Part shown: positions 1-15,588 of the stretch, piece by piece
How the letters are laid out: the number at the start of each line of letters is the position of its first letter
How positions within the stretch are numbered: position 1 is the stretch's first letter
Origin: Propioniciclava tarda
GTDB lineage: Bacteria > Actinomycetota > Actinomycetes > Propionibacteriales > Propionibacteriaceae
Direction: 5' to 3'
Length of the DNA: 64,000 nucleotides
NCBI RefSeq assembly: GCF_900182665.1
Contig: NZ_FXTL01000002.1
Span: forward strand, 186,001 to 250,000
The notes under the pieces: generated by a model
Seen by the model: the letters and a program-made list of their open reading frames with translations, nothing else
What the model was told of the DNA's origin: nothing
Databases searched by the model: none
Program-made: the position numbers and the translations under genes

Positions 1-77
1 GCTGGACGCTCAACGGCAACGTTTTCGAGCGCCAGATCGACGGGGGGGGGGGTAGCTCGAATGCTGCCGCTGTTTGA
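1..77 (+). pseudogene. 3' end of an Eco57I/PglX-type DNA adenine methylase, out of frame
   Basis: Read from base 3, the sequence gives WTLNGNVFERQID, then four glycines, then runs out at TGA 75-77. In family members as I remember them, a segment like WTLxGNVFxR directly precedes the LPLYEAKM block. That block is encoded just downstream from base 61, but in a different frame. The shift falls in the 11-G run at 42-52. With ten Gs this reading would pass straight into the gene at 61. The methylase core (NPPY motif) lies outside the window, so the family call rests on junction context. The gene is either phase-variable and currently off, or a sequencing error in the homopolymer. Confidence 0.6.
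42..52 (+). repeat. 11-nt poly-G tract, candidate phase-variation site
   Basis: Eleven consecutive G residues sit exactly where the upstream methylase frame (starting at base 3) must join the frame of the gene at 61. Losing one G (or gaining two) restores one continuous reading frame. Slippage of poly-G tracts switches the Streptomyces coelicolor pglX methylase on and off, which is a precedent in the same family. A homopolymer miscall is the main alternative. Confidence 0.7.
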
Positions 78-825
78 AGCCAAGATGATCCACCTCTACG
101 ACACCCGCTGGGCGACGTATGAGCCAGACGGGTCGATTCGGCCGATCACCGAGGACGAGAAGGCCGCCTACCTCCTTCCGATTCCCCGGTACTGGCTGAC
201 CGAGGCCGACGTAGATGCCTCATGGGGAAGCCGTAAGCCGACGGGTCCGTACTTCGCCTGGCGTGGGATTGCGCGAACCAGCGACGTGCGCACCGCAATC
301 GGCACGGTGATGCCTGCCGCCATCCCAGGCGGTGGGAACTTCGACATGGTGCTGGGGTGCGACCGCAACGAATTGCCCGGATTCGCCGCGGTCTTCTCCA
401 GCTTCGTGTTCGACTTTGTCGCCCGACAGAAGCTCAGCAACATGCATCTCCAGTTCAGCGTGGCCAAGCAACTCCCGATGGTGATGCCTGAGCAACTGGG
501 ATCGCTGGCGCTCCCTTTGGATCGCCCTCTGCGAGCCTGGGTTGCTCTGCGAGTCGATCGTCTGAACGGCTGGATCCCCGACACCGACCAGCGGGCGCAG
601 GTGCGAGCCGAACTGGATGCCCTGATGTTCCACGGCTACGGACTCACGCGTCCAGAAGTGTCGTACGTCATGGATACCTTCCCGATCGTGAAGCGCAAGG
701 ACGAGGCCGCCTATGGGAACTACCGGACCAAGGACCTGATCCTGTCCGCCTACGACGCGATGGCCGAGGCGAAGTCGTCAGGACGCACCTACCAGCAGCC
801 CTGGCCCCAGGAGGTTCACACATGA
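61..825 (+). CDS. C-terminal module A of Eco57I/PglX-type methylase (254 aa)
   Basis: The protein begins MLPLFEAKMIHLYDTRW, the conserved block that follows the catalytic half of Eco57I-like and BREX/DISARM methylases. It ends with DTFPIVKRKDEAAYGNYRTK followed by a YDAM helix, the usual family C-terminus. No methylase catalytic motif is present, so alone it is only the target-recognition/C-terminal part. It could start at ATG 61 as its own protein. More likely it is the continuation of the upstream gene, reached when the poly-G tract at 42-52 is in frame. Its stop overlaps the next start (ATGA), so it is co-translated with a second copy of the same module. Confidence 0.7.
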   Translation: MLPLFEAKMIHLYDTRWATYEPDGSIRPITEDEKAAYLLPIPRYWLTEADVDASWGSRKPTGPYFAWRGIARTSDVRTAIGTVMPAAIPGGGNFDMVLGCDRNELPGFAAVFSSFVFDFVARQKLSNMHLQFSVAKQLPMVMPEQLGSLALPLDRPLRAWVALRVDRLNGWIPDTDQRAQVRAELDALMFHGYGLTRPEVSYVMDTFPIVKRKDEAAYGNYRTKDLILSAYDAMAEAKSSGRTYQQPWPQEVHT

Positions 826-1724
826 CGCAGACGGTGGAGCGCATGCTGCCGCTCTACGAGGGGAAGATGGGCCTCCTTTACGACCACCGTTACGCCTCCT
901 TCAGGGGAGTCGGGGACACGGACATCGAGGCGAACCAGGAGCGCCAAGACGATTCGCTCGTGCTCCCGCGCTACTGGGTTCGCGAAGAAGTAGTTGCCGA
1001 TCGGCTCGTCAGGCGCACGTGGGGGTCCGAGGCCGCCCTGCTCGGCCACCGCCGGGTCGCGCGCAATACCGACGAGCGCACCATCATCGCGAGCTTCATC
1101 CCGTTCGGCGCGGCTTCCTACGGCTGGATCCTCAGTGCTGGTCCCGACGCGCGGGCGCTAGCGCTCCTGGTCGCCCAGTACAACTCGTTCGCGCTTGACT
1201 ACATCCTTCGCCAGTTCCTATCGCAGCCGTCGATCCCTCAAGGCACCTTCGGCCAACTGCCAACGCTCCCGCCGGATGTGTTCGCGAGGTTGGACCCGTT
1301 GGTCGGGAACGGTGTTGACTGGGTCGTCGATCGAGTGGCCGTCCTTGTCGGCTCAGGTATCGAGATGCACGCCTACGTCCGTGAGTTGGGCCGGGAGTAT
1401 TTGCTCCCTGTCGAGTGGGATCAGGAGCGCCGCGCAGCATGCCGGGTCGAGCTTGACGCAGCGATGTTCCTGCTCCTCGGCGTCGAGCGAGCTGACGTCG
1501 AACACATCATGGACACGTTCCCGATCGTCAAGCGGAAGGATGTGGCTGCGTTCGGCTCGTTCCGGACGAAGGAGCTGATCCTCGACGTCTACGACGCGAT
1601 GGAAGCCGCTATCGACGCTGGGCGGCCCTACGTCTCCCCGCTCGCTGACTTACTCGCTGGCGAGCAGGGTCGCGGCGCGATTTCGCCATACACGCAGGAG
1701 GAGAGTGAGTGCGCTCATGAGTGA
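822..1724 (+). CDS. C-terminal module B of Eco57I/PglX-type methylase (300 aa)
   Basis: This is a second free-standing C-terminal module. It starts MTQTVERMLPLYEGKMGLLY, so its ATG lies seven residues before the conserved LPLYEGKM block. It ends with the same block as its neighbour (DTFPIVKRKDVAAFGSFRTK, then a YDAM helix). The central 180 or so residues differ strongly from module A, as expected for alternative target-recognition domains. It overlaps module A by ATGA and mcrB by a few bases. I infer a duplicated, diverged specificity module that may pair with a separately encoded methylase core. It could instead be a recombination remnant, but the intact frame and coupling argue for expression. 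Confidence 0.65.
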   Translation: MTQTVERMLPLYEGKMGLLYDHRYASFRGVGDTDIEANQERQDDSLVLPRYWVREEVVADRLVRRTWGSEAALLGHRRVARNTDERTIIASFIPFGAASYGWILSAGPDARALALLVAQYNSFALDYILRQFLSQPSIPQGTFGQLPTLPPDVFARLDPLVGNGVDWVVDRVAVLVGSGIEMHAYVRELGREYLLPVEWDQERRAACRVELDAAMFLLLGVERADVEHIMDTFPIVKRKDVAAFGSFRTKELILDVYDAMEAAIDAGRPYVSPLADLLAGEQGRGAISPYTQEESECAHE

Positions 1725-3855
1725 GATCGCAAGCGAGCCGGTTCGACGGGGGCTCCTGATTCGTGCCGCACTGCAGGTGCTTGCGGAGGCGGGCGGTCCC
1801 GTCCCGAGGGCTGACGTCATTCGCCTCGTGGAGCAGCGAGTGCAGCTGACGCCGTACGAGCGTGCCCCGTTCCGGACGAACGACTCGCTGCGCAGATGGG
1901 AGAACCATCTGACATGGGCGAGTACCGATATGAAGGCTGCCGGTTGGATCGAGAAGACCCCTCAGGGTTGGCTGATAACCGACGCCGGTCGGGAGGCGCT
2001 CGCCACACACCCCGAGGACGGCGCGGGGCTAGATGTTGAGTCGGGACAGGCGTACCGCGATGCGCGCCGCGCGGACGCCCCTGAGACTCCTCGCTATCAG
2101 CGAATCCTGGAGGCGGCGCTGGATTTCCTGGAACCCGGCCAGTGGACCACTTACAGCGACATGGCAGCGGTCGCGAGCACGAATCCGCAGACTGTGGGCT
2201 ATGTCATGAGCGGTGCCTCCTCAGAAGGGGCGACGCATCGAGTGATCGGCAAGGACGGGCGCCCGTCAGCCGGATTCGTTTGGTCCGATGGGCGCCCCGG
2301 CACCCAGCGGGAGGCGCTGGAGGCCGAGGGAGTGCAGTTTGATTCGTCGGGAGTGGCGAGCGAAGCGCAGCACGTCCGGACCGAGGATCTGCGGGCATAT
2401 CTGGAGGAGCTTGGCGTCTTGGTCGCACCGCCACAGCGGGCCTGGCTCGTGCGCGGGTCGTCCGTGGACGGTCACGACTTGATCCCCACCTGGCGACAGG
2501 AGGGCTACGCGTCCCTACGGGCGGCCAAGCTGCGCGAAGTAGAACCGGGCATCGGGCGTCCTGAGCTCAAGGCGATCGTTGAGGAGGACTACTCGCAGAC
2601 CTCGTACGCGGCGAAGGCTGCGAAGCTCGACGAGTTCCACGCGTTCCTGTCACGCATCCAGGTCGACGACGTGATCGCCACCACCAGCCAGGGGAAGCTC
2701 TATCTGGGCACGGTTACCGGGCCGGCAGAGTATGTGAACTCCGCCGATGACCTGTCGAACCTGCGCCGGGCCGTGGCCTGGGCTCCCGACGGATTCGACT
2801 ACGCCGAGTTGCCGAGCGAGGTGAAGGCGCGTCTGCAGATTCAGTACGACGTCGTCGAGATGACCCAGCAGCTCGACCTGCTGGGGAAGTTGCTTGCCGC
2901 GCAAGCCACGGAGGTCGAGGACGACGAGCCTGCCCCGCCGGTGGTAGAGCGTGAACTGGCACTGCCGAACGCGACGGACGAACTCGCACGCCAGTTGAAT
3001 GTGGATCGGGCGTGGCTGCAGGAGTGCATCGAACTGCTCCGCGACCGGCCCCAGTTGATCTTCTATGGCCCGCCCGGCACGGGGAAGACGTATATCGCCC
3101 AACACCTGGCCGCGCACCTGGCCGGGGACAACGTGCGGCTGGTGCAGTTCCACCCTGCGTACTCCTACGAGGACTTCTTTGAGGGTTACCGGCCACTCGA
3201 ATCTGGCGGGTTCAAGCTGAAGCCCGGCCCGCTGCGCAAGACGGTGGACGCCGCACGCGAGAATCCGTCGACCCCGTACTTCTTGATCATCGACGAGATC
3301 AACCGCGGCAACCTGGCGAAGATCTTCGGCGAGCTGTACTTCCTGCTGGAGTACCGCAGCCAGAACGTCGACCTGCTGTACGCCACCGACGACGACATCG
3401 GGTTCACGCTGCCGGAGAACGTGTTCGTGATCGGAACGATGAATACCGCCGACCGGTCTATCGCGCTGGTGGACGCCGCGATGCGGCGCCGGTTCGCCTT
3501 CGTGCCGCTGCACCCGTCCGAGCCGCCTACCGACGGCGTGCTGCGGAGATGGCTCGGGGCATCCGGCTTGGACGTCGGCGTGGCTGACCTTCTGGACGAA
3601 CTGAACCGTCGGATCGAGGATCCGGGCTTCAAGATCGGGCCGTCCTACTTCATGCGCAAGGCAGTGCACGAGCCGGGCGGTCTCGAGCGGGCGTGGCGGA
3701 CGGCGATCCTGCCGCTCCTCGAGGAGCATCACTACGGCGACGGCATCGACGTGCGCGCCCGTTACGGGCTTGACGCGATTCGCGCCCGGGTGGCACGGGC
3801 ATCTGCGGCCGCGAACTCGGGGCCTGGTGATGGCGAACCCGCTGATCCTGCGTGA
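1717..3855 (+). CDS. mcrB: McrB-family AAA+ restriction NTPase with winged-helix and alkyltransferase-like domains
   Basis: This is the motor subunit of a McrBC-type modification-dependent restriction system. Numbered from the GTG at 1705 (716 aa): an Mrr-N-like winged helix at about 13-100; an alkyltransferase-like domain at about 128-213 (WTTYSDMA, HRVIGKDGR, FVWSDG) with no PCHR cysteine; a region at about 246-340 beginning AWLVRGSS that resembles EVE/PUA-type modified-base readers; then AAA+ with Walker A GPPGTGKT (455-462), Walker B FLIIDEINRGN and sensor GTMNTADRS. The N-terminal reader set is unusual for McrB. ATG 1717 and GTG 1705 both fit; AGGAGG lies at 1697-1702. It overlaps mcrC, its nuclease partner. 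Confidence 0.9.
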   Translation: MSEIASEPVRRGLLIRAALQVLAEAGGPVPRADVIRLVEQRVQLTPYERAPFRTNDSLRRWENHLTWASTDMKAAGWIEKTPQGWLITDAGREALATHPEDGAGLDVESGQAYRDARRADAPETPRYQRILEAALDFLEPGQWTTYSDMAAVASTNPQTVGYVMSGASSEGATHRVIGKDGRPSAGFVWSDGRPGTQREALEAEGVQFDSSGVASEAQHVRTEDLRAYLEELGVLVAPPQRAWLVRGSSVDGHDLIPTWRQEGYASLRAAKLREVEPGIGRPELKAIVEEDYSQTSYAAKAAKLDEFHAFLSRIQVDDVIATTSQGKLYLGTVTGPAEYVNSADDLSNLRRAVAWAPDGFDYAELPSEVKARLQIQYDVVEMTQQLDLLGKLLAAQATEVEDDEPAPPVVERELALPNATDELARQLNVDRAWLQECIELLRDRPQLIFYGPPGTGKTYIAQHLAAHLAGDNVRLVQFHPAYSYEDFFEGYRPLESGGFKLKPGPLRKTVDAARENPSTPYFLIIDEINRGNLAKIFGELYFLLEYRSQNVDLLYATDDDIGFTLPENVFVIGTMNTADRSIALVDAAMRRRFAFVPLHPSEPPTDGVLRRWLGASGLDVGVADLLDELNRRIEDPGFKIGPSYFMRKAVHEPGGLERAWRTAILPLLEEHHYGDGIDVRARYGLDAIRARVARASAAANSGPGDGEPADPA

Positions 3856-5050
3856 AGGTGACGGTCCGCGGCTGGTGGAGTTGCGGCGTCCGGTTGCGGA
3901 CGCCCTCGCCGCAGCTGGGACCGTGCAGCTCGGCTTGACGGACCGGCCGGGCTGGTGGGAAGTGTCGGCCGGCACCCAGATCGGCGTTGTCAGCGTCGAC
4001 GGGCTGCAGGTGGTCATTCAGCCCAAGATCGGCATCAAGCGGTTGGTGTTCCTCATGGGGTACGCGCGGCACCCAACCTTCTGGCGCGACGATCGAGTGC
4101 TGCTGGACTCGGATGCGGACCTCCCCGAGGCGCTGGCGGACGCCTTCGTGCGGCTCGCGCGTCGGGCGCTGGAGCAGGGACTGCTCAAGGGGTACGTGAC
4201 GGTGGACGAGACCCTGGCAGTGTTGCGCGGACGGGTCCGCGAGGCCGACCAGCTGCGGCGTCGGTGGGGGCGAAGCATCCCGCTCGAGGTTCGCTACGAC
4301 GAGTTCACCGTGGATATCGCCGAGAACCAGCTGCTGTTGGCGGCAGTCGAGCAGCTATTGCGGACGCCGCGGGTCGGCGTCCGGCATCGGGCGGGGTTGC
4401 AGCGGCTGCGGCTGCAGTTGGCGGATGTGACCGCCCCTGGGCGGGGCGGCGTCCGGCCTTCGTGGGTGGCGTCGCGGTTGAACGCGAAGTACGTGCCGGC
4501 GTTGGAGTTGGCGGAGTTGGTGCTGGCGGGGCGGTCGTTCGAGCAGCGGGTCGGGGACCTGGTGGTGTCGGGCTACCTGTTCAACATGGCGACAATCTTC
4601 GAGGACTTCGTGACGGTCGTGTTGCGGGAGGCGTTTCGGCCGTTCGGGGGTCGTTCGCGGTTGCAGTACCGCACCCATCTGGACGAGGCCGAGACGGTGC
4701 CGGTTCGTCCGGACTTCGTGTGGTTGGACACCGGCCTCCCGCGGGTAGTGGTGGACGCCAAGTACAAGGCAGAGAAGCCCAGCGGGTTTCCGCAGGCCGA
4801 CCTCTACCAGCTTCTTGCATACTGCACCGTCCTTGGCCTACCGGTCGGGCACCTGATCTACGCGAAGGGGTTCGAGGACGCGCGCGAGCACGCGGTGCGG
4901 CACGCCGGGGTTCGGATCGTCGCGCACACCCTGGATCTGCAAGCCGAGCCAGCCTCGCTGCTGCGAAGCGTGAGCGGCCTGGTTGACGAGATGCGGCCGA
5001 CGGTGGACCCGGCGGCGCCTGCCGGGCGGCAGGGGAGGGTGCCTTCATGA
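3830..5050 (+). CDS. mcrC: McrC-family restriction nuclease subunit
   Basis: This 406-aa protein is the PD-(D/E)xK nuclease partner that docks on McrB hexamers and cuts DNA. The N-terminal half is the McrC beta-rich region (GVVSVDGLQVVIQPKIG). The nuclease signature is near the C-terminus: VRPDFVW followed by RVVVDAKYK, giving the D...DxK set, then QADLYQLLAY. The start overlaps the end of mcrB by about 26 bp. I chose the first start (GTG 3827 or ATG 3830) that gives the normal N-terminus, since an earlier in-frame ATG lies deep inside mcrB. The stop overlaps the GIY-YIG gene as ATGA, so all three proteins are probably made in fixed ratio. Confidence 0.9.
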   Translation: MANPLILREGDGPRLVELRRPVADALAAAGTVQLGLTDRPGWWEVSAGTQIGVVSVDGLQVVIQPKIGIKRLVFLMGYARHPTFWRDDRVLLDSDADLPEALADAFVRLARRALEQGLLKGYVTVDETLAVLRGRVREADQLRRRWGRSIPLEVRYDEFTVDIAENQLLLAAVEQLLRTPRVGVRHRAGLQRLRLQLADVTAPGRGGVRPSWVASRLNAKYVPALELAELVLAGRSFEQRVGDLVVSGYLFNMATIFEDFVTVVLREAFRPFGGRSRLQYRTHLDEAETVPVRPDFVWLDTGLPRVVVDAKYKAEKPSGFPQADLYQLLAYCTVLGLPVGHLIYAKGFEDAREHAVRHAGVRIVAHTLDLQAEPASLLRSVSGLVDEMRPTVDPAAPAGRQGRVPS

Positions 5051-5865
5051 CCGCAGAGCAGGGGCCCACGGTGTCCTCGATCTCGTTGGCTGACGTCGTG
5101 GCCGTCGCCGGTCTCGCCCTGATCGACGTCCTGCTGATCAGGCACCCCTTGAGCAACGCCAGAGTGAGGGAGGCACTCGAGGCGGACCAGTTACGCCAGT
5201 ACACCAGCAGCCAGGGCGCCCGATTCCAGGGCCGGCAGCGCTTCTGGCTGGTCTTTCTTGGGGAGGAGGGCCGCAGTGCCCGCTATGTGGCCTGCTACGA
5301 GAACGCAGGCATCCTCACCCCCGGCAGCTTTGACTTGAGCGATGCGGCAGTTCTCCCTGACCTCGTCAACCGCCTTGTCGTCGACTGGGGGCCCGGGACC
5401 CGCAGTTGGTGGCAGAACGGGCCGACCGCGGTGAGCAAGCCTGTCCTCGCGATCATGGACCGAAGAGTCGAACACTTCCCAGGGTTCGAGAACCTCGTCC
5501 TGACGTTCCGGGAGCTTGAGATTGTCGTTATCGAGCCGCGCCGCTACGCGGAGTGGCATGCGGCCATGTCCTCGGTGAACGCCGTTTACCTCATCGTCGA
5601 CGCGCATACCGGCAAGCACTACGTCGGGTCTGCGTACGGCGTGGGAGGCCTGCTCGGCCGCTGGAAGGAGTACGTGGCCACGTACCACGGCCACAACGTG
5701 AACATGGTGGAGGGCGTGCGTGCCGATCCGTCCATGTTCCAGCGTTTCCAGTTCTCGGTCTTGCAGATCCTCCCGAAGAGCTCCACCGCGGACGAGGTCG
5801 TTGCCGTGGAGACCCTGTACAAGCGCAAGCTGCTCAGCAAGGAGTTCGGCCTCAACGCGAACTGA
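5047..5865 (+). CDS. GIY-YIG nuclease domain protein
   Basis: This 272-aa protein is coupled to mcrC by an ATGA overlap. The C-terminal third (about 178-272) is a GIY-YIG nuclease: NAVYLIVDAHTG then HYVGSAYG supply the GIY and YIG strands, GRWKEY supplies the catalytic arginine, and VAVETLYKRKL supplies the metal-binding glutamate. The first 170 residues are a domain I do not recognise (FWLVFLGEEGRSARYVACY). Catalytic residues look intact, so it should cut DNA. Its place as last gene of a methylase-module/McrBC transcript suggests an extra effector nuclease rather than a homing endonuclease, although such genes do occur alone. Confidence 0.8.
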   Translation: MTAEQGPTVSSISLADVVAVAGLALIDVLLIRHPLSNARVREALEADQLRQYTSSQGARFQGRQRFWLVFLGEEGRSARYVACYENAGILTPGSFDLSDAAVLPDLVNRLVVDWGPGTRSWWQNGPTAVSKPVLAIMDRRVEHFPGFENLVLTFRELEIVVIEPRRYAEWHAAMSSVNAVYLIVDAHTGKHYVGSAYGVGGLLGRWKEYVATYHGHNVNMVEGVRADPSMFQRFQFSVLQILPKSSTADEVVAVETLYKRKLLSKEFGLNAN

Positions 5866-5964
5866 TCCCTCGCCAGAATGCGAGACGCGCTGGCCGACCA
5901 AGGTTGTGCTGCGGCACTGACGCGTCCGACGGTGGATCGCTGCTCCCCGGAGTTGCCGCTCCGT

Positions 5965-8900
5965 TCATCCCAGGGGTGGTAATGAGACCATCAGGTCCGA
6001 GCGGGCGGGGTCCAGGTGGGTCGCAGCCCAGTCGCGGACGCTGGTCTCTTGCGAGAAGAGGATGACTTGGCGTTCCTTCGAGATGTCGTGCAGCAGCGAG
6101 AGCAGAGCCTCGGTCCGGGTGGCGTCGCACTGCACCGTCACATCGTCGAGGATCAGTGGCATGGTCTCGGCTGTTCCGAGGTGTTCCACGAGCGCGAGAC
6201 GTAGCAGCAAGAACGTTTGCTCGGCGGTGCCCTGAGAGAGGAGGGCGGCGTCGCGCCAGACGCCGGACCGTTCCTGCAGTTCCACGGCGAGTGTCTCTGG
6301 TGTGACGCGGGCGTCTTGGTAACGGCCGCCCGTCACCAAGGGAAGCCGTCGCCGGATCGCGGACTCAAGAACGGGGGTGATGGTGCGGTGCGCCTGCTGT
6401 TGGGCAGCTTCCAGGTGTTCGATCGCCAACTCGAGGGTGGCCTTCAACTCGATGAGGGAGTCCTTCTCCGACCGGCTTGCGGCGGCGAGTTCGACGGCCG
6501 CAGGCAGGTCGCCCTCCTGCTCGCGTAGGCGCACCAGTTGCCCCTCGGCGGTTGCTCTTCGGGTGACGCAGGCTTCGACCTGCGCGGAAGCGGACGCGAC
6601 GAGTTCGTCAGGGTTGGGGGGCAGGGATTGCGGCCGGTTACCGAGCCCTGCTGTGAGGGTGTCGACCTTCGTTGCGAGTTGCTCGAGGGTGGCGCCAGTC
6701 AGCAGTTGAGCGCGCAGCGAGCCGATCCGGTCCCGTTTCTGGTAGACGGCGGCGGCGTGGTCTTGGGCCTCCAGCCAGTCGCCGAGCCACTGCGCAGCGG
6801 CCTGCGCATCGTCGCTGGGATCGCCGCCCACGAGCCGTGCGGTCGCGAGTAGCTCGTCGGCGCGTGAGGCCCAGCGTTCGATAGCCGTCCGGTATGCGAC
6901 GTCAGCTGCGCTGCGCGCTTCCAGAGCGCGCGTCAGATCGGCACGACGGCTGGCTTGGGAGGCGATCTCCGCCCGGCGGTCACACGCCGCCTCGTAAAGG
7001 CGGTAGGCGGCGTCCGCCGCGTCGGCCTCCTCGCCCTCCGCGATTGGCGGTTGTTCGCCCTTCTCGCGCAGCGCATCGAGCAGTCTTGTCGCCGCTAATT
7101 GGGCTTCGCTCTGAAGCCGGGTCAGATCTGCGCGCTGCTGTTCGCCGAGCCTCCGGGCGCCGGCTCGCAGGTCGATGGCTTGGGCCAGCCGGTCGAGCTC
7201 CTCGGGGTTGGATGGCAGTCCGCGACGCGAGAGTTGCTCCGTGAGTTGAGCGTGCGCCGCGTCGAAGAGCGAGGCTCTTTGTTGCCAGTCGGACCTGCGG
7301 CTGGCGATCGCGGCCACTTGGTCAGACAGTGCCGGTTCGGTCGGCCTGTCACCGGGGGGAGGCAGATCGGTGGGTTCCGGTGCTTGAGGGGCCGGCGGAG
7401 GGGCGTCCATTTGGGGCACGCTGGGTGCACCGCCGTCGGTTGCACGCCGGGACCCGGTGCGCATCAGGAGGCCAGCGACGACGACAGCCACACCAAGAGC
7501 GGCGATGAGCGCGCCGATGAGCGGGTCGAGGAGAGTAGCGGCCAGCCCCGCCACGATGAGGGAAGCTCCGATCACCAGTAACCACTGGGGTGCGCCGAAT
7601 CGCGCAGCTCCCGAACTGAGCCCACGGCGTCCGACAGGCTCCCCACGAGTCGTGAGCGTCGCACGGTAGGCGTCCCAACTGCGGGCGTACTCGGCTTGCT
7701 CGGCGGCGTAGCGTTCGCGTGCTGTGGCGTACCAGGTGGCTGCTTGCTCGTGAGCTGCGGCTCTCGCCTGCCACGCCGACAGGTCGTGTGCGAACCGTTC
7801 CAGGGCCTGCGCGTGCCGGTTGCGCAACAGCGACTCGGTCTCGTCCTCACGGGGATCCCACGTGGGTCGCCGCAGCCGCAACCGGTTCGCGTGGCGTCGA
7901 AGTTCGTCGCTCTCCGCGTCGGGGAGCGCCTCGTCTGTGGCGGTCTCGAGGGGCAATTCCGTCCGAGAGGCGACTGCGGAGGTCGCGTGGTGGAACTGCT
8001 CCCACACTGCGCGTACCTGCGGATCGGGCGACGTGTCACCGTCCGGCGCCTGCGGAAGTGTCGCCAGTTGCGATTCGAGCGCGTCGACGGACGGCCCGGT
8101 CGGTGCTTCTGGTGGTTCGTCGCGCGCGAGGAAGGCAATTCGAGCATCCCGGACCTTCTTGAGAAGTTCGGGCGGGGCCGGTTCGCCAACGACTGTCGAG
8201 TCAGCCAGTTCGGCATCGTAACCCCGGATCTTGGCGATCCGGCTTTCCAGGGCGTCCACTTCGGCCCACTTCTGCCATGCCTGTGCTTGGGCGAGCGTGT
8301 TGCGCGCCTGAGTTTCATCACGGGCCAATTCGGCGACGCGGATAGTGGTTCGTCGAAGGTCATCGCGAGCGGCACGGAGCTTGTAGAGGGTGTCTTCGGC
8401 GTCTTGCAACTCTTCGATGGCCCGGCGCAGTGGACGCCTGCCGATCGAGAGACTGCCAACGCGGGTGGCGAGGTCGGCCTTGAGCGTGTCGAGTACCTCT
8501 TGGGCGGTCACATCGATGGCCTGGCTGGAGGTCGCGCGCTGGAGGTACTGCTGCAGTTCGTCGGACTGCTCCAGCACGCGCAGAATTTCGGCTTGTGGCA
8601 CGAACGTGGTGGCCCGCAGGGTTCCTCGGCTGAGCCCGAAGAGCTCGCCGACGTCGATGTCGTCCCAGTCGGTCGAAGAAAGCCCGAAGCGCCGCTCCAA
8701 CTCCGATCGGCTCAAGGGTTTAGGAGTCCCCGTGGGCAGGATCCGCGTCGTGCCGCCGACGAGGTCTTGGGTGATCGTCAGTCTGGTGCCGTCGTCGGTC
8801 GTGATCGCGCTGGTGACCTGCCAGCGCGAACCGCTCCAGGGTTTGTGTTTAGCCTTGAACTGCGCGTCGTCGCGTGTTCCTCGACCGCGCGATCGACGCC

Positions 8901-9048
8901 TTCCGGCGAGGCTGGAGTAGAGCGCTGCGGCCCACGTGGTCTTGCCGCTCTCGTTGGGACCCGTGACGATGGTGAAGGCCGGCGCCAACCCGAGGTGCTC
9001 GCCCCGGAACGGGCCGAAGGAAACAGCCGTAACCGTCTCGAACCTCAT
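5965..9048 (-). CDS. YhaN/SbcC-like SMC-type ATPase with central membrane hairpin
   Basis: This 1027-aa ABC/SMC-type ATPase has Walker A GPNESGKTT at about residue 30, long coiled coils (210-480 and 560-900), an LSQGTAEQTFLLLRLA signature and Walker B PLILDDVTVQCD near the C-terminus. The layout is that of YhaN, a RecN/SbcC-like DNA-end processing ATPase. Two hydrophobic helices at about 490-529 (LLVIGASLIVAGLAATLL and LIGALIAALGVAVVVAGLL) sit where SbcC has its hook, so the arms may be membrane-anchored. It is translationally coupled to the upstream phosphoesterase-like gene, as sbcD precedes sbcC. It is transcribed toward the mcrBC operon. Confidence 0.85.
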   Translation of the reverse strand: MRFETVTAVSFGPFRGEHLGLAPAFTIVTGPNESGKTTWAAALYSSLAGRRRSRGRGTRDDAQFKAKHKPWSGSRWQVTSAITTDDGTRLTITQDLVGGTTRILPTGTPKPLSRSELERRFGLSSTDWDDIDVGELFGLSRGTLRATTFVPQAEILRVLEQSDELQQYLQRATSSQAIDVTAQEVLDTLKADLATRVGSLSIGRRPLRRAIEELQDAEDTLYKLRAARDDLRRTTIRVAELARDETQARNTLAQAQAWQKWAEVDALESRIAKIRGYDAELADSTVVGEPAPPELLKKVRDARIAFLARDEPPEAPTGPSVDALESQLATLPQAPDGDTSPDPQVRAVWEQFHHATSAVASRTELPLETATDEALPDAESDELRRHANRLRLRRPTWDPREDETESLLRNRHAQALERFAHDLSAWQARAAAHEQAATWYATARERYAAEQAEYARSWDAYRATLTTRGEPVGRRGLSSGAARFGAPQWLLVIGASLIVAGLAATLLDPLIGALIAALGVAVVVAGLLMRTGSRRATDGGAPSVPQMDAPPPAPQAPEPTDLPPPGDRPTEPALSDQVAAIASRRSDWQQRASLFDAAHAQLTEQLSRRGLPSNPEELDRLAQAIDLRAGARRLGEQQRADLTRLQSEAQLAATRLLDALREKGEQPPIAEGEEADAADAAYRLYEAACDRRAEIASQASRRADLTRALEARSAADVAYRTAIERWASRADELLATARLVGGDPSDDAQAAAQWLGDWLEAQDHAAAVYQKRDRIGSLRAQLLTGATLEQLATKVDTLTAGLGNRPQSLPPNPDELVASASAQVEACVTRRATAEGQLVRLREQEGDLPAAVELAAASRSEKDSLIELKATLELAIEHLEAAQQQAHRTITPVLESAIRRRLPLVTGGRYQDARVTPETLAVELQERSGVWRDAALLSQGTAEQTFLLLRLALVEHLGTAETMPLILDDVTVQCDATRTEALLSLLHDISKERQVILFSQETSVRDWAATHLDPARSDLMVSLPPLG

Positions 9049-10031
9049 GAGGACTCTTCGCTCTCGAGGGAGCTCAAGGCCAGGGCCAGGGCTTGATGGC
9101 GGCGGGCCTCATTCGGCCCGGCGCCCGACAGCCGGCGAATGAGTTCCGCCGCGACGGTGCGATCGTCTGCTTTGGCCGTCGGGAATCTGTAGTCGAGGTC
9201 ACTCCAGTCGACGGTGACGTCATCCCGGCTGGGCTGCCACGGCAGGGCGGGTGGCACAAGCAACCGTGCAGCGACACTGCCACTCACCACCACGCGGTCG
9301 AGGCGCTCACACTGCGACAACAGGCCGTCGAGCGCTGCGGTGAGGGTGGCGCCGTCCCGGAAGTCGTCCAGGGGCAGGTGTCGTGTCGAGCCCAACTGTT
9401 GCGCGTAGGTCACGTCCTCACTGTGAAGGTCCGGGTCCGAGCCGTGGATGAGCAGGACACCCTCGGAGCGGCCCCCACCCGTGCCCACAACCAACGGCGT
9501 GAGCGTGAGATCCGAGGGACGAGGCGTCTGGCTGCCCTGCAAGACAGCCGGTCGGATCACAGGCAAATGGGTCCCCGGTGGTGAGGGGTGGGTCGTGAGC
9601 ATTGCGACAACCCCCTCCAGCGGCGGGATCCTCGAGCCCCTCGGGCCCAGGATGGCGAACCGGGCGTCACCAAACACCACCACGGTGCTCGCCTCCGGGG
9701 TCATCCAGCGTACGGTCGAGGGCCACTCGTCCAATGCCTGCGGCGCGAAGTTGCTCTCGGCGTCCTGCTCGTTCGGGACGAGCAGCACCTCGCAGGGCAG
9801 GCTGCCCAGCACGGTTCGGACATCCCCGACGGTCGACCGGCGCACCGTTGTGGGATCCCACAGGCCGCCCAGAATGATCAGGCCATCAACGCGCAGGTCG
9901 ATGCACTGCTGCGCCACCTCCATAAGGAGACTGACGCTCGCCTCGCGCAACCCGCGGGCGGCACCCACCGCCTCGTCAGGCCATGCCTTGTCGAGGTTGA
10001 GCCCCGCCACGACCAAGATCCGAGCACCCAT
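9045..10031 (-). CDS. SbcD/YhaO-like phosphoesterase homologue lacking catalytic residues
   Basis: This 328-aa protein is the first gene of the pair with the YhaN-like ATPase; its stop overlaps the ATPase start. The fold follows SbcD/YhaO: strand-start ARILVVAGLNLD where the family has hAADLHLD; DGLIILGGLWD for GDLWD; LLVPNEQD for GNHD. All three metal-binding motifs have lost their Asp/His/Asn ligands (D to G, H to N, D to G, GNHD to PNEQ). It is therefore probably a structural or regulatory pseudo-phosphoesterase. Start chosen at MGARI, where homology begins; the longer frame to 10139 would overlap the divergent helicase gene. The promoter must lie in 10032-10089. Confidence 0.75.
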   Translation of the reverse strand: MGARILVVAGLNLDKAWPDEAVGAARGLREASVSLLMEVAQQCIDLRVDGLIILGGLWDPTTVRRSTVGDVRTVLGSLPCEVLLVPNEQDAESNFAPQALDEWPSTVRWMTPEASTVVVFGDARFAILGPRGSRIPPLEGVVAMLTTHPSPPGTHLPVIRPAVLQGSQTPRPSDLTLTPLVVGTGGGRSEGVLLIHGSDPDLHSEDVTYAQQLGSTRHLPLDDFRDGATLTAALDGLLSQCERLDRVVVSGSVAARLLVPPALPWQPSRDDVTVDWSDLDYRFPTAKADDRTVAAELIRRLSGAGPNEARRHQALALALSSLESEESS

Positions 10032-10089
10032 CCCGCGGCCCCTGTTCAGATAGGGTTTCCCATTGTCATCGGACGTTACAGGACAAGGC

Positions 10090-12942
10090 ATGCCTGACCC
10101 CCACCACCTCGAAATCGGCGCCCTCGTCGAGGGCGTCATCGCCGACGAGGTCGTGAGGCTGCTCGAGATCCGGCGATCGGGTGATTCCGCGCTGGTGACC
10201 TACGAGCGCATCAATGGCGAACGAGGCACCGCCTTCCTGAACCGCGATGCTCTGGCGGGCCTGGTCCAAGTTGCGGCACGGTCCACGTGGCGCGCTCGAT
10301 GGTCCGACTTCAAGCTGGGTGTCCAGGCGTTGGCGCTGCAGGCGGCGCCGTTCGAGGACCGGCTGCTCGCCGTGAGCTCTTCGAACGTCATCCCCCTCCC
10401 GCACCAGGTTCAAGCGGTCTATCGCGAGATCCTCCCGCACCATCGCCTGCGCTTCCTCCTCGCCGACGATCCGGGGGCCGGAAAGACGATCATGACGGGC
10501 CTTTACCTCAAGGAGGTGCTGGCCCGCGGACAGGTCACGCGGGTGCTGATCGTCGCGCCGGGCAGCCTCACCGAGCAGTGGGTTGACGAGATGTGGAACC
10601 GTTTCGGGCTCTCGTTCGTCGAGTTGGGCACCCAGAACCTGGTGTCGGACGCCGTGGGTGGCCCCGCCCTTGCGGACGCCGGCCCACTCGTGGTGGCCAG
10701 ACTCGACCAACTTGCTCGCAACGAAGATCTGCTGCAAGCGGTGCTTCGCGAGGACTTCCACGTCGTCGTGGTCGACGAGGCCCACAAGATGAGCGCCCGC
10801 CGCTGGGGCAGCCGAATGATCTTCAGCAAGCGCTACCTGGTCGGCAAGGCGCTAGCGGCGGAGGCGCCGCACCTACTGCTGCTAACTGCGACTCCACACA
10901 ACGGAAAACCCGAGGATTTCGCGGGCTTCATGGAGCTGTTGGACGTCGAGCTGGACCAGCGCAGACCCGTCCTCGACCAAGCCCCGGTGCGGCGGCTCGT
11001 CAAGGAGCAGCTGGTTCATGCGGACGGGAGGACCCTGTTCCCGCCCCGCATGGCCTCGACCCTCGGCTACGAGATGACGCCGGACGAAGGCCACATGTAC
11101 GAGGCCGTCACCCAGTATGTGGCCGAGGAGATGAACCGGGTGATGGACGAGACCGTGCGGCGCCGGGTCGGCTTCGCCATGATGGTGCTCCAGCGACGCC
11201 TGGCCTCGTCGCCCGAGGCCATCCTCCGCTCACTGGAGCGGCGGTTCGACCTGCTGCAGTCCCTGCTCGAGCGGGCCGAAGCCAGGGACGCCGATCTGGC
11301 AGTCCTGCTCGCGGCCTCCCTCCAAGAGGACCCCTCCACGGAAGACGACGAAGGGCCGGGCGACGACTCAGCTTCCTCGGCCTCGGCAGCGCGCACACCG
11401 GCCGAGTTACGTACGGAACTGCTCGTCCTCGAACGTCTCATCCGTGAGGCGTACAGGGTGCGCTCGTCGGGCGTCGACCAGAAGTGGGAGGCGCTCAAGG
11501 CGTTCCTCACCAGCGCAGACAGCAGGGACGACCTCGGTATGCGCCGCAAGGTCATCGTGTTCACCGAACACCGCGACACCCTCGATTACCTGCTCGAACG
11601 CATGGACGAGGTCCTGCAACACGGAGAGTATGTGGCGGTCATCCACGGCCAGACGCCGCGCCACGAGCGGAGGCAGGCGCAGCACGACTTCAATCACGAT
11701 CGTCAGTGCGGAATCTTGTTGGCCACGGACGCCGCGGGCGAAGGAGTCAACCTGCAGGTGGCCAACCTCATGGTTAACTACGACATCCCTTGGAATCCCA
11801 ACCGCCTCGAGCAGCGGTTTGGCCGGATCCACCGCATCGGTCAGGACCGCACCTGCTACCTCTGGAACTTGGTGGCCACGGACACCCGAGAGGGCTACGT
11901 CTTCGAGACCCTCCTCGAGAAGCTCGCCGTGCAGCGCGAGGCATTGGGGGACCGCGTCTTCGACGTGCTGGGCGACGTCCTGTCGGGGGCCGACCTGAGC
12001 CGGATCCTCACCGAGGCGGTTCGCACGCAGGATCCGTCCGGCGCACTCTCAGTTGTCAAACAACTCCTCGACCACGAGTTGGGCTACGAGGTAGCCCGGC
12101 GAGCGGCGAGTACCACGGAGTTCAGCCCGGACGATTTGGCAGGGATCCAGCGTCGACTTCAATGGGCCAAGGCATTGGACCCCCAGCCGGTGATGGTGCC
12201 GACCTTCGCCCGAAGTGCGTTGCTGCGACTCGGCGCGGAAGTCCACACCGTCAGACCAGGGACGTGGAGTGTGCCCTACGTACCGGAGCCCCTGGCCAGC
12301 GAGCCGGGCGTGGCCAGATCGTATGCGCGCCTCCACCTTGACCGGGCGAACCTGGCAGCCGACGACGCTGGCGCAGCTGATTTCCTCGCTCCCGGGCACC
12401 CGTTGCTGAACGCTTTGGCCGCACGGGTGTCGTCAGAACTTGCCACGAGCCTGCGTGACGGCGTGCTACTTGAGGATCCCCTCTCGCCGGACAACTACCT
12501 CTTGATCACGGACCAGGCCGAGGGGTTTCCACAGACGTACCGTGTCGAACCCGAAGGCACCCGCTCTCGCGTGGCCGTGGACGCCGCCTTGGACCTGCAA
12601 CCTGCCCAACTGTCAGACACTGCGTGGGCCACCGAGCTCGCACAGTGCGCCCCCGCATGCGACGCCACGCTGGCGATCGCTGCCGTGAGAGGCACCGCAC
12701 AACCTCACCAGGTCGCTCACCACCGCAGTCTGGTGGACGACGCGGCGCGACGGCTGGGGGACGAGGGCTCGGTCATTCGAGGCCTGATGGGTGCTGGATT
12801 CGATCTCGCAGTGGAGCGCGGCTCCTCAGTCGAGTTCGTCACCATCGACCGGACGGCGGCGTTCGGCAGTCACCAAAGTCTCCCCTCGGAGAATCGCTTG
12901 GCGCTGGCAACGATGGTCAGTGTTCAGGGACGGCGACCGTGA
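10090..12942 (+). CDS. drmD: DrmD-like SNF2 helicase of a DISARM-type defence system
   Basis: This is a 950-aa superfamily 2 SNF2-type ATPase. Motifs run in order: LPHQVQAV (Q-like), Walker A DDPGAGKT, DEAHKMSA (motif II), LLTATPHNG (III), VGFAMMVLQRRLASSPEA, KVIVFTEHRD (IV), ATDAAGEGVNLQ (V), NPNRLEQRFGRIHRIGQ (VI). The DDPGAGKT/DEAHKMSA wording is what I know from DISARM DrmD helicases. DISARM DrmA and DrmB are absent from the window, though an Eco57I-type methylase is present. ATG 10090 has AGGACAAGG seven bases upstream, better than the TTG at 10063. It is divergent from the phosphoesterase-like gene across only 58 bp, so the two probably share control. Confidence 0.8.
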   Translation: MPDPHHLEIGALVEGVIADEVVRLLEIRRSGDSALVTYERINGERGTAFLNRDALAGLVQVAARSTWRARWSDFKLGVQALALQAAPFEDRLLAVSSSNVIPLPHQVQAVYREILPHHRLRFLLADDPGAGKTIMTGLYLKEVLARGQVTRVLIVAPGSLTEQWVDEMWNRFGLSFVELGTQNLVSDAVGGPALADAGPLVVARLDQLARNEDLLQAVLREDFHVVVVDEAHKMSARRWGSRMIFSKRYLVGKALAAEAPHLLLLTATPHNGKPEDFAGFMELLDVELDQRRPVLDQAPVRRLVKEQLVHADGRTLFPPRMASTLGYEMTPDEGHMYEAVTQYVAEEMNRVMDETVRRRVGFAMMVLQRRLASSPEAILRSLERRFDLLQSLLERAEARDADLAVLLAASLQEDPSTEDDEGPGDDSASSASAARTPAELRTELLVLERLIREAYRVRSSGVDQKWEALKAFLTSADSRDDLGMRRKVIVFTEHRDTLDYLLERMDEVLQHGEYVAVIHGQTPRHERRQAQHDFNHDRQCGILLATDAAGEGVNLQVANLMVNYDIPWNPNRLEQRFGRIHRIGQDRTCYLWNLVATDTREGYVFETLLEKLAVQREALGDRVFDVLGDVLSGADLSRILTEAVRTQDPSGALSVVKQLLDHELGYEVARRAASTTEFSPDDLAGIQRRLQWAKALDPQPVMVPTFARSALLRLGAEVHTVRPGTWSVPYVPEPLASEPGVARSYARLHLDRANLAADDAGAADFLAPGHPLLNALAARVSSELATSLRDGVLLEDPLSPDNYLLITDQAEGFPQTYRVEPEGTRSRVAVDAALDLQPAQLSDTAWATELAQCAPACDATLAIAAVRGTAQPHQVAHHRSLVDDAARRLGDEGSVIRGLMGAGFDLAVERGSSVEFVTIDRTAAFGSHQSLPSENRLALATMVSVQGRRP

Positions 12943-13106: not shown

Positions 13107-13982
13107 TTAGGCGGCCTGGAGGGCCGGTGTGGTCATGATGGTCTCGAACTCGATGGGGGTCAATCGGCCGAGGCGTTGCTGGCGTCGGCGGCGGTGGTAG
13201 GTGCGTTCGGTCCAGGTGACGATGGCGATCCGGAGGTCGTGGCGGGTGTGCCAGCGTTGCCGGTTCAAGACGTTCTTCTGGAGCAGGGCGAAGAAGGATT
13301 CCATGGCGGCGTTATCGCCGGCGGAGGCGAGTTGGCCCATCGACCCTTTCAGCTGGTGACGGCGGAGCGCGGCCAGGAACTTCCTGGAACGAAATTGGCT
13401 GCCTCGATCGCTGTGCACGATGCAGCCGGCCACGCTCCCGCGGCGTGCGACGGCCATGTTGAGCGCGTCGACGGCGATCTTGGACTTCATCCGGTCACTG
13501 ATCGAGTAGCCGACGATCCGGTTGGACCACACGTCCTTGATCGCGCACTCGTACAACTTGCCCTCATCGGTCCAGTGCTCGGTGATGTCGGTCAGCCACA
13601 GCTGGTTCGGCCCGGTCGCGGTGAAGTCCCGCTTCACCAGGTCGTCGTGGGCCGGCGGGCCGGGCTTCTTGCCGTTGCGGCCACGTTTCTTGCCGAACGC
13701 GCTCCACCAGCCGTTGTCCGCACAGATCCGCCACACTGTTCGGTCACACCCGGTGTGGCCGGCAGCGCGCGCCTCATCGGCCAGGAGTCGGTAGCCGAAC
13801 TCCGGATCATCGTGGTGGGCGTCGAACAGGGCGTTGGCCAGGTAGGCCTCGGCGAGTTCGGAGTCGCTGATGGGGTGGGCGAGCCAGCGGTAGTAGGGCT
13901 GGCGGGCGAGCTTCAAGACCCGGCACGTGACCGTGACGGGGATCCCGCCGGCGGCCAGCTCCTTGACGAGCGGGTACATCAT
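13107..13982 (-). CDS. IS3-family transposase OrfB (DDE integrase)
   Basis: This 291-aa protein is the catalytic part of the IS3 transposase. The rve-type core shows the DDE triad: LTDITEHW (first Asp), IVHSDRGSQF (second Asp) and AAMESFFALLQKN (Glu), followed by a C-terminal TYHRRRRQQRLG region. The upstream HTH_21-like part contains YYRWLAHP and FGYRLL. The start MMYPLVKEL at 13982 overlaps the orfA stop in a GGAAAATGATG context, which could allow either coupling or -1 frameshifting into an OrfAB fusion. The frame is intact, so this protein may still be active. Confidence 0.9.
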   Translation of the reverse strand: MMYPLVKELAAGGIPVTVTCRVLKLARQPYYRWLAHPISDSELAEAYLANALFDAHHDDPEFGYRLLADEARAAGHTGCDRTVWRICADNGWWSAFGKKRGRNGKKPGPPAHDDLVKRDFTATGPNQLWLTDITEHWTDEGKLYECAIKDVWSNRIVGYSISDRMKSKIAVDALNMAVARRGSVAGCIVHSDRGSQFRSRKFLAALRRHQLKGSMGQLASAGDNAAMESFFALLQKNVLNRQRWHTRHDLRIAIVTWTERTYHRRRRQQRLGRLTPIEFETIMTTPALQAA

Positions 13983-14416
13983 TTTCCCGGCAGGTTCGCC
14001 TGGGACAGATACGCCGCCGCTCGACGCAGGACCTCGTTCTCCTGCTCTAGCAGCCGGATCCGGCGCTTCGCGTCGCGGAGTTCCTTGGCGTCGGCCTCGG
14101 TGGTCCCGGACCGGACGCCGTCTTCGACATCGGCCCGGTGCAGCCAGTTCCGCAGACAGGACTCGCTGATCCCGAAGTCCTTCGCGATCTGGGCGATCGG
14201 CGCCTCGCCCGCACACGCGTGGTCAGCGTTGCCCGCCGCGGTCGATCTCTTGCGAGAAGACTTCGGCCCCAAGACTGCGGCCGACGGTCTCCCGGACTGA
14301 GAGCACACCTTCGACCCGGCAATCAAGCATCCTGAACTGCCGCGAGGCGCGCGCCCGAAGTTGTCTGTCTGCGAGCCTTGCTCGACCGTTGCGCGGATGG
14401 CCGCGCTAGCCCTCAC
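13979..14416 (-). CDS. IS3-family OrfA, probable damaged N-terminus
   Basis: The C-terminal two thirds are typical OrfA: HTH block IAQIAKDFGISESCLRNW, then a DVEDG linker and a leucine-zipper-like ELRDAKRRIRLLEQENEVL. The preceding 75 residues do not carry the usual PKxFxxEFRDDVVxVAR-like opening. In this region (about 14210-14280) the expected sequence seems frameshifted or rearranged, so the true start cannot be fixed. OrfA binds the terminal repeats and regulates OrfB; without a normal N-terminus the element may be immobile. Confidence 0.55.
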   Translation of the reverse strand: MRASAAIRATVEQGSQTDNFGRAPRGSSGCLIAGSKVCSQSGRPSAAVLGPKSSRKRSTAAGNADHACAGEAPIAQIAKDFGISESCLRNWLHRADVEDGVRSGTTEADAKELRDAKRRIRLLEQENEVLRRAAAYLSQANLPGK

Positions 14417-14538: not shown

Positions 14539-15258
14539 TTAGCTGCCAGGCTTCACGCGGACGGAGACGCTGGTGGTGCCTTCGTTGCGGAACTCGTAGC
14601 CGGGCAGTGCCTTGAGGACCTTGGTCCAGGTTGCCTTGCCGTGGTCCCTCGACGTCTGCCCGTAGTGCTGGCGCAGGTGGTTCGCGACGGCGCTGACTCG
14701 GGCCCAGCCTTGCTTGTCGGCGTTCTTGGCGATGGCGCCGGCCAGCATCTCGGTCAGAGTGGGTTGGGGATTCGTCGCGGTCTTCTGCTTCGCCGTGCCC
14801 GCTGTGGAGCTTGGGGTGCTGGCGCCGTTGCCGTGAATGGCGGTGAACGTGGTGCAGGCGGCCTGGAATGACGGGGCGGTGGTTGGGCGTCCGAAGCCGA
14901 GGACCTTCACGCCGCGCTCGCGCAAGTAGTGGGCCAGCGGGGTGTAGTCGCTGTCACTTGAGACAAGCGCAAAGATCTCTGGGGCAACGGTGTGGTGGAG
15001 ATCGACGGCGTCGATCACGAGCGCGAGGTCGGTGGCGTTCTTGCCCTTCACCGGGTCGGACTGCTGGATCGCGCGGAAGCCGCGTCGGTTCAGTTCGGCG
15101 TCCCAGCTGCGCAGGGCCGTCTTGAACCAGTTGCCGTAGGCGCGGCGAATCTGAACCTGACCGTGCTTGGTGAGCGCGGCGAGTACTTCATCGAGGCTGT
15201 CCAGTGCGGCGTTGTCGGCATCGACCAGGAGTGCGATCGCGGGCGGCGTGTCAGTCAC
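14539..15258 (-). CDS. NYN-domain ribonuclease-like protein with OST-HTH/LOTUS domain
   Basis: This is a 239-aa protein. The N-terminal NYN/PIN-like domain (LabA/DUF88 type, about 5-135) carries the acidic cluster of this nuclease fold: LLVDADN, NATDLALVIDAVDL and LVSSDSDYTPLA. A low-complexity Thr/Ala linker follows. The C-terminal 70 residues (LTEMLAGAIAKNADKQGW ... LPGYEFRNEG) look like an OST-HTH/LOTUS RNA-binding domain. The architecture suggests a metal-dependent RNase with an RNA-recognition tail. Start is GTG 15258, since the homology begins four residues later. It lies inside mobile-element debris, so it may be cargo. Confidence 0.8.
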   Translation of the reverse strand: MTDTPPAIALLVDADNAALDSLDEVLAALTKHGQVQIRRAYGNWFKTALRSWDAELNRRGFRAIQQSDPVKGKNATDLALVIDAVDLHHTVAPEIFALVSSDSDYTPLAHYLRERGVKVLGFGRPTTAPSFQAACTTFTAIHGNGASTPSSTAGTAKQKTATNPQPTLTEMLAGAIAKNADKQGWARVSAVANHLRQHYGQTSRDHGKATWTKVLKALPGYEFRNEGTTSVSVRVKPGS

Positions 15259-15414
15259 AAGCGAACAGTAGTCGTGTAGTTGCCGTCGGTGCCGGTTCGT
15301 CACTCTCACGTGCTGGCGGACGAACGTCCACCTCTGTGCCGAAGATCGGCGGCTCCCGGGTGACCGCAGAGGACTCCTCGCTGCCTTCTTCATCTACGAA
15401 GAAGGGAGTTCGCG

Positions 15415-15588
15415 ATGGAACCTCCGAATGCCCGCGAGTTGGCCTGCGTCCCGTTGCCCGATCGGGACCTGTTGGCCGAGCAGCTGCTGAGCGAGCTTGA
15501 GTTCGCCGTCTTGATGGCGCCGGACGATGAGCCGATCGTGCGGCTGCAGGCGATGTGGGACGACCTGAAGCGGGGTCGGGTCCGGTGA
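15415..15588 (+). CDS. Small hypothetical protein upstream of the ArdC-like gene
   Basis: This 57-aa ORF has a good GAAGGGAG ribosome site six bases before the ATG. Its stop overlaps the GTG start of the ArdC-like reading frame (GTGA). The sequence is acidic and helical, with LLAEQLLSELEFAVLMAPDD in the middle. I recognise no family. Position and coupling suggest a partner of the antirestriction gene, perhaps part of the same conjugative-element operon. Confidence 0.55.
   Translation: MEPPNARELACVPLPDRDLLAEQLLSELEFAVLMAPDDEPIVRLQAMWDDLKRGRVR

Follow-up and report, generated by a model that had tools for sequence, protein, structure and literature searches.

The described systems closest to the gene cluster that opens the Propioniciclava tarda stretch analysed here (64,000 nucleotides, C2:186001-250000 of a 2.97-Mb, 40-contig draft assembly; the window hereafter) include the anti-phage systems ARMADA and Pgl. 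ARMADA type I is common in Actinomycetota, and its association with McrBC is mentioned in the available part of its description (PMC12458937). In the ARMADA type II that was tested, the loss of any of four genes, the methylase included, abolished protection (PMC12458937). In the Pgl system of Streptomyces coelicolor, the methylase gene pglX contains a G tract, observed in versions of 8 and of 7 G, to whose length phase variation at frequencies of 10^-2 to 10^-4 is ascribed (PMC4365076).

Together with genes just upstream of the window, the cluster probably represents two separate, adjacent predicted anti-phage systems: an ARMADA type I cassette with McrBC (the left block) and a three-gene unit (the right block). 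This estimate covers the explanation as a whole, namely two systems, a phase-variable methylase, exchanged recognition modules and an independent right block. The left block appears to be a variant form of type I ARMADA accompanied by McrBC, for which comparison with relatives provides good evidence of a slipping switch and exchangeable modules. The right block is a rare candidate unit, with two genomes known to carry it. Switching, methylation and defence are predictions from sequence. The original prediction for this DNA had placed the genes in two coupled blocks facing each other plus a divergent helicase, and the list of open reading frames (ORFs) agrees with it: all ORFs, strands and coordinates were present when re-derived (Table 1). 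The GC content at the locus is 64-72%.

Table 1. Features of the two predicted systems; positions refer to the window unless contig coordinates (C2) are given.
Feature	Position	Strand	Basis or remark
YprA/DUF1998 helicase, 1724 aa	C2:174940-180114, outside window		DEAD 3.1e-27; MZB/DUF1998 2.6e-8; DruE-type models <= 326 bits
BrxHII-like SNF2 helicase, 936 aa	C2:180111-182921, outside window		SNF2 (Pfam); PADLOC DpdE-named model 1099 bits
Catalytic core of the PglX/Eco57I methylase (1050 aa), similar to ArmB	C2:182925 to window 77 (1..77 in window)	+	Pfam Eco57I 2e-16; PADLOC DruE/DrmMI/DrmD-type matches across upstream proteins
11-G homopolymer at catalytic core/TRD1 junction	42..52	+	Proposed slipped-strand phase switch; here out of register
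TRD1, C-terminal recognition module of PglX	61..825	+	Frame differs from core
TRD2, the second recognition module, a separate 300-aa ORF	822..1724, 4-nt overlap with TRD1	+	Type IIG model match
McrB-like GTPase; contains a winged helix (Mrr_N) and an alkyltransferase-like DNA-binding domain	1705..3855	+	Pfam AAA_5, Mrr_N, DNA_binding_1; PDB McrB 4.6e-48
McrC	3830..5050 (start by eye; frame opens 3770)	+	PF10117 9e-54
UzuA-type GIY-YIG protein	5047..5865, 4-nt overlap with mcrC	+	PADLOC UzuA 4.8e-83, residues 12-272
YhaN/SbcC-like ATPase, two adjacent mid-protein hydrophobic stretches (by eye)	5965..9048	-	YhaN/AAA_27 match; 55% full-length G541 orthologue
YhaO-like metallophosphoesterase homologue without metal motifs	9045..10031 (open frame to 10139)	-	Alignment
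HmaA-like SNF2 helicase without canonical C-terminal extension	10063..12942 (next start ATG 10090)	+	HmaA model

The start of the window cuts an operon, whose 5' genes were found in the 20 kb examined upstream. Adjacent genes of the left block share between 4 and about 26 nt or leave a 3-nt gap (starts picked by eye), so the block is likely one operon. It begins with a YprA-family helicase carrying DUF1998/MZB within one protein, followed by a BrxHII-like helicase and a PglX-like methylase. Relatives keep the same order, and the three-gene set, its order and the association with McrBC all resemble ARMADA type I as far as the available account describes it (PMC12458937). A GajB/RelE-fused ArmD, the marker of type II, is absent from the eight window proteins and the upstream proteins scanned, which fits type I. 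The C terminus of YprA resembles a Vsr-type nuclease domain by eye, without a Pfam match. The names Vsr, ArdC, NYN and IS3 and the active-site readings given for this locus are tentative assignments. Originally, the genes were thought not to form a named system and to include a DISARM-type helicase without DrmA/DrmB. The first view is wrong for the left block, which is of a known kind, and the second changes with the YprA/DUF1998 helicase and second SNF2 helicase directly upstream. This SNF2 helicase reaches 306 bits against the NCBIfam DrmD model, under the model cut-off of 610. The "methylase modules" proposed at 1-825 and 822-1724 are related to methylases as claimed, but both are C-terminal recognition modules, and the catalytic part, which ends at window position 77, starts 3 kb outside the window.

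YprA homologues (E <= 1e-60) occur in 18 of 296 phylum genomes, including that of P. tarda. The loci of 15 of the other 17 were fetched, G141 and G240 being contig fragments, and 14 show the order YprA-SNF2-PglX; in the 15th, the contig stops inside SNF2. At E <= 1e-100, YprA is found in 9 of 147 family genomes, again with P. tarda included; six copies are 78-93% identical and two about 50%. These six genomes (G350, G501, G532, G533, G538 and G542; YprA at least 78%; fetched stretches of 14-20 kb) are the close relatives referred to below. In the plasmid collection, both McrB and the methylase core are matched best by actinobacterial sequences, which together with the GC content makes an actinobacterial origin likely. 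The core also matched a single viral contig, which was examined only for G/C runs. DISARM has separate DrmA and DrmB proteins as well as DrmC; in the left block, by contrast, YprA and DUF1998 are one ORF. The window and upstream proteins scanned include no member of the PLD family (DrmC), and none of them matched PglZ, PglW or BrxC/PglY, although no whole-genome search was made for these.

Phase variation is known for many restriction-modification methylases. At the P. tarda locus, the methylase core and its first recognition module (TRD1) lie in different frames, and the frame break coincides with the 11-G tract, the sole run of at least 10 G or C in the assembly. All six close relatives have a single tract at the same junction (10G, 10G, 9G, 8G, 11C and 11C), while other G/C runs in their loci do not exceed 6 nt. 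In the two C-tract loci, the spacer that separates the tract from TRD1 is different. Behind each tract, one of the three registers enters TRD1, and the remaining registers stop within 0-29 aa. Two of the seven loci, G501 and G538, are in register and have a fused core-TRD1 frame of 1299-1300 aa; the window, G542, G533 and G350 are out of register, and so is G532, which has a further break. This variation is seen between species, one genome each. The shared position, the turnover between G and C among relatives and the natural occurrence of both registers favour a slipping switch, and the methylase is predicted to be phase-variable via the junction homopolymer. The likeness to Pgl lies in a PglX methylase with a G tract. 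The difference, judged against the part of the Pgl report used here, is that the tract sits between core and recognition module, a second module follows, and some relatives have C tracts (PMC4365076). Likewise, the split methylase with its homopolymer, the tandem modules and the UzuA-type gene set the locus apart from ARMADA type I as available to us (PMC12458937), and the words "phase", "frameshift" and "homopolymer" are absent from the main text of the ARMADA preprint. Among the titles listed from PubMed Central, outside which most subscription papers lie, there was no report of a phase-variable ARMADA or DISARM-related system.

The split could instead be permanent, the core and the separate TRD1 and TRD2 forming a fixed two-subunit enzyme for which the G tract would provide a strong ribosome-binding site, or it could stem from a homopolymer sequencing error. 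TRD1 of the window has an ATG of its own 8 nt behind the tract, TRD2 is a separate ORF in every locus, and a 40-contig draft assembly may miscount homopolymers. Against this, the gene is fused in the two in-register loci, and in all 12 more distant loci where the gene is complete, PglX is a single ORF (1325-1585 aa if the earliest possible start is used). Moreover, the C tracts of two loci should not act as ribosome-binding sites, and seven assemblies have the tract at the same place. This alternative is unlikely.

Exchange of the recognition modules is supported by the modules themselves. Each is about 250-300 aa long, TRD1 and TRD2 of the window are 38% identical, and a second module stands behind TRD1 in all seven loci. 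The Type IIG model is matched by 9 of 10 recognition modules, for TRD2 at model positions 997-1084 of 1250; a PDB search with the modules gave no meaningful match. Both ends of TRD1 are conserved (identity of 0.92 across the initial 20 columns and once more towards the other end), whereas its middle is variable (down to 0.35-0.41). Identity to the window is 78-91% for the core, 55-72% for TRD1 (without the G532 fragment) and 49-85% for TRD2; the modules are much more variable than the core, and the order of similarity differs from part to part. G501 has the closest core (0.91) but just 0.59 in TRD1 and 0.47 in TRD2; G350 has a core of 0.81, yet 0.72 in TRD1 and 0.65 in TRD2; G538 (core 0.88) has a TRD2 in common with the window (0.85) but not TRD1 (0.59). 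TRD1 is open in six of the seven loci, as is TRD2 according to the script used, which missed a G532 TRD2 that is nevertheless visible in one frame. Both G532 modules, of which TRD1 is broken, stand outside the module alignment. The ratio of non-synonymous to synonymous substitution rates (dN/dS; simple count method, with some pairs saturated) against the window is 0.15-0.40 for TRD1 and TRD2, out-of-register genomes included, and 0.44 for the 126-codon TRD1 fragment of G532. Between two out-of-register genomes, the window and G350, it is 0.15 for TRD1. The dN/dS values and the conflicting similarities of core and modules suggest that the modules are kept and exchanged among relatives, which would change the recognised site. 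Exchange between the first and second slot was also considered and rejected: TRD1s and TRD2s remain separate classes. A search of viral contigs with a 30-nt TRD1 pattern was unproductive.

According to the proposed mechanism, a change in tract length during replication would either fuse the core to TRD1 (ON) or detach it (OFF), TRD2 always being separate. In register, PglX with TRD1 would provide site recognition; out of register, recognition would be lost or passed to a free module. Because neither the tested ARMADA type II nor Pgl defends without its methylase, the OFF state should amount to silencing without self-attack: the ARMADA part would be silent, the host would not be killed, and McrBC would stay on. 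McrBC has putative DNA-reading domains of its own (Mrr_N and alkyltransferase-like), and the GIY-YIG protein may supply an extra nuclease. A bolder version is conceivable but doubtful: the tract would pick between two specificities, core and TRD1 fused versus a free core acting in trans with TRD2 or TRD1, and the right block would be a separate SMC-based unit built around a retained dead Mre11-like subunit. If true, a single slipping homopolymer would re-aim a multi-gene DNA-targeting system together with its self-marking, and module exchange would renew both specificities. The natural relatives offer in-register and out-of-register alleles with differing modules, so that the role of a PglX-type C-terminal module in ARMADA self/non-self recognition is directly testable.

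Downstream of the modules, the McrBC assignment of the original prediction holds: an McrB GTPase and McrC are both present. McrB occurs in all six close relatives and McrC in five, the contig of the sixth stopping inside McrB. Beyond these, Nocardioides JS614 plasmid pNOCA01 has the same cassette order with orthologous McrB and McrC directly behind it. In Streptomyces BHT-5-2 and, by annotation, on D. radiodurans MP1, McrB and McrC lie farther downstream of the cassette. McrB and McrC are equally close to the cassette in none of the 15 phylum loci, two of which have weak McrB-type matches. The available section of PMC11090510, which deals with DISARM-like or methylase neighbours of McrBC, places McrBC beside a YprA-SNF2-PglX-type cassette, as here; it defers description of the cassette and does not mention a switch or tandem modules. 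The D. radiodurans R1 cassette (plasmid MP1, 158181-175219) is ARMADA-like, although its annotation lacks that label; the annotation divides its methylase into two genes, which an IS630-type transposase follows. Residues 132-210 of the window McrB (positions 2098-2334) match the alkyltransferase-like domain PF01035 (28.6 bits, cut-off 27), in which the active-site cysteine position seems, by eye, to read THRV; the domain is possibly a reader of modified guanine. Some close relatives have extra ORFs between TRD2 and McrB. Those at L181 12764-13315 and L182 12730-13643 (ARMADA orientation) are small and acetyltransferase-like by eye, with a possible antitoxin in L182, and mark an apparent insertion site for accessory genes.

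The GIY-YIG gene was also correctly recognised: its product is a UzuA protein, as in Uzume systems, although its Pfam GIY-YIG match (21.4 bits) is slightly under the cut-off of 22.6. Uzume is termed poorly understood in the part of the literature at hand (PMC10740426). The gene is absent from the fetched stretches of all six close relatives and is thus an accessory gene here. The UzuA protein alone is found in 4 of 296 phylum genomes, P. tarda included, and in 387 plasmid records; the search of viral contigs was unproductive.

SMC-like ATPases with phosphoesterase partners form known families, such as YhaN-YhaO and SbcCD/Mre11-Rad50. The right block resembles them in its overlapping pair of an SMC-like ATPase (YhaN/AAA_27) and a metallophosphoesterase homologue, which upholds the "YhaN pair" of the original prediction, and differs from them in a phosphoesterase without metal ligands and in the added SNF2 helicase. 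YhaN keeps the motifs Walker A (GPNESGKTT), LSQG and LILDD, and its hydrophobic stretches lie near residues 489-530 by eye. Models of Lamassu LmuB (2.9e-7) and MADS mad3 (1.7e-14) match only part of its length. The same trio in the same divergent layout is present in G541, a draft of about 330 contigs (YhaN 55%, phosphoesterase 46% and helicase 69% identical), which has no YprA match at E <= 1e-100. This indicates that the right block forms an independent unit. At E <= 1e-8, proteins like YhaN occur in 43 of 296 phylum genomes, P. tarda included, most matching the C-terminal part only. Of the other 42 genomes, six with long matches were fetched, and their paired phosphoesterase keeps SDLHLD, GDLYE, PGNHDW, HGSE and GHFH or close variants. 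In the window and G541 copies, by contrast, the first two motifs read GLNLD and GGLWD, and the aligned positions have no counterpart of GNHD, HGSE or GHxH; an HGS triplet elsewhere in the window protein is missing from the G541 copy. The loss of the metal motifs in both copies is in line with the "dead phosphoesterase" of the original prediction, and the homologue is predicted to be catalytically dead.

Further copies of this phosphoesterase were sought widely. Only its own genome was hit among the 296 phylum genomes, and among 196 order genomes only its own plus five weak matches (15.7-18.2 bits); plasmids and viral contigs contained no further copy, and the PDB gave no meaningful match. For YhaN, there was one weak relative in genome contigs, 10 partial matches in plasmids and nothing useful in viral contigs. 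The open frame of the phosphoesterase from 10139 overlaps that of the helicase; the conserved protein starts at 10031, and the helicase may start at ATG 10090. No effector nuclease was recognised in the right block, nor was there a report of the trio among the PubMed Central titles listed. The YhaN/SbcC-like ATPase, probably membrane-anchored, would probably sense DNA ends or structures in SMC fashion, with the dead YhaO-like subunit as scaffold or regulator and the helicase as the motor on DNA. The right unit would then be a compact case of an SMC-like ATPase retaining a phosphoesterase partner without metal-binding motifs.

"DrmD helicase", the name originally chosen for the third gene, is not the best one, the HmaA model scoring 752 bits and the DrmD model 373 bits. 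The likeness to Hma/DUF499-centred systems, taken from portions of PMC8565338 and PMC12839542, consists in this best match to HmaA. The right block has neither HmaB nor a DUF499 HmaC, and its helicase has no C-terminal extension; instead, there is a YhaN-like ATPase with a dead phosphoesterase. On plasmids of Rhodococcus and Gordonia, canonical HmaA (about 1140 aa) is accompanied by a DUF1156 methylase together with a protein that is either DUF499 or Swt1-HEPN. At E <= 1e-90, the helicase matches in 24 other phylum genomes, 17 of whose loci were fetched, some cut by contig ends; HmaB homologues are present in 14 and HmaC in 9, and YhaN or the phosphoesterase in none. In the family (E <= 1e-60), 23 of 147 genomes match, P. 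tarda included, and G541 was the one of the other 22 fetched for this gene. Among the matches listed, only G541 reaches the end of the helicase (69%, to residue 954), the others ending by residue 818. The idea that the adjoining transposase had cut the helicase short was rejected on the grounds that the orthologue in G541 has the same end point.

A broken Hma system, with HmaB and HmaC left on contig 4 and the window helicase as its stranded HmaA, is a very unlikely explanation. In its favour, no HmaA-like protein turned up in the assembly other than this helicase and the ARMADA SNF2 helicase, and the 20 kb fetched of contig 4 contain HmaB and HmaC homologues without HmaA. Against it speak the missing extension, shared with the 69% identical G541 orthologue, and the lack of a convincing remnant adjoining the gene; compared with the canonical extension, the DNA downstream gave only weak matches, of which the strongest (E 1e-4) lies at about 21.3 kb. 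In addition, 14 of the 17 fetched HmaA are closer to the Rhodococcus reference (44-56%) than is the window helicase (42%), and the contig 4 HmaB is itself broken into two frames. The contig 4 genes (G000:C4:1-20000, 6296-12632, minus strand) comprise this HmaB and a 1146-aa HmaC. Part of another HmaA-like helicase (42%) lies on the same G541 contig as the trio (L187, G541:C171, 4173-5717).

Slightly less probable still is that the two blocks make up a single composite, with DNA sensing or processing done by the right block on behalf of the left. Both blocks are rich in helicases, and uzuA and yhaN are only 99 nt apart. On the other hand, the blocks are convergent, G541 has the right block without a YprA match at E <= 1e-100, the fetched stretches of none of the six close and none of the 15 distant ARMADA loci contain its YhaN, phosphoesterase or HmaA-like orthologues, and YhaN and the phosphoesterase are likewise missing from the 17 HmaA-type loci. 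The original prediction had left the choice between one system and two or three side by side; of these, two systems stand. The composite is rejected because the DNA immediately beyond the window contains DISARM-related genes and because the parts occur apart from each other in relatives.

Several points weigh against the explanation by two systems with a phase-variable methylase and exchanged modules. The ARMADA type I call is based on domains and gene order. No G/C run of at least 8 is present in 20 fetched loci (15 ARMADA, 3 UzuA and 2 on named plasmids, with the junction covered in 14 of them) or in eight further distant or unrelated loci, so the switch would be confined to the lineage of the window. 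When the synonymous codons of the operon without the tract were shuffled, runs of at least 8 appeared in 298 of 500 sets, of at least 9 in 215, of at least 10 in 35 and of at least 11 in none; because the shuffled sets often reach 8, tract length alone says little. The seven tracts share ancestry and are thus not independent events, homopolymer lengths may be wrong in draft assemblies, and G532 has more frame breaks in TRD1 and McrC, which is compatible with decay. The variability of TRD2 is less sharply central than that of TRD1. The structure models of TRD2 and the phosphoesterase are too poor to use (mean predicted local distance difference test scores of 44.8 and 45.9), and the right block is known from two genomes of one genus.

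Promoter and terminator scans of the locus gave nothing informative. Directly behind the helicase gene lies an IS3-type transposase in two frames (13107-14416, minus strand, by eye). Farther on are a NYN-like protein (14539-15393, by eye) and ArdC-like anti-restriction ORFs in two frames with an HEAAHTTLH motif (15555-16645, by eye); the proximity of ArdC-like and NYN-like ORFs suggests a mobile-element origin of the island. Upstream of the operon, on the minus strand (L002 3060-3542 and 4221-4694), are a short match to TrwC relaxase (PF08751, 4.3e-13) and a helix-turn-helix nucleotidyltransferase.

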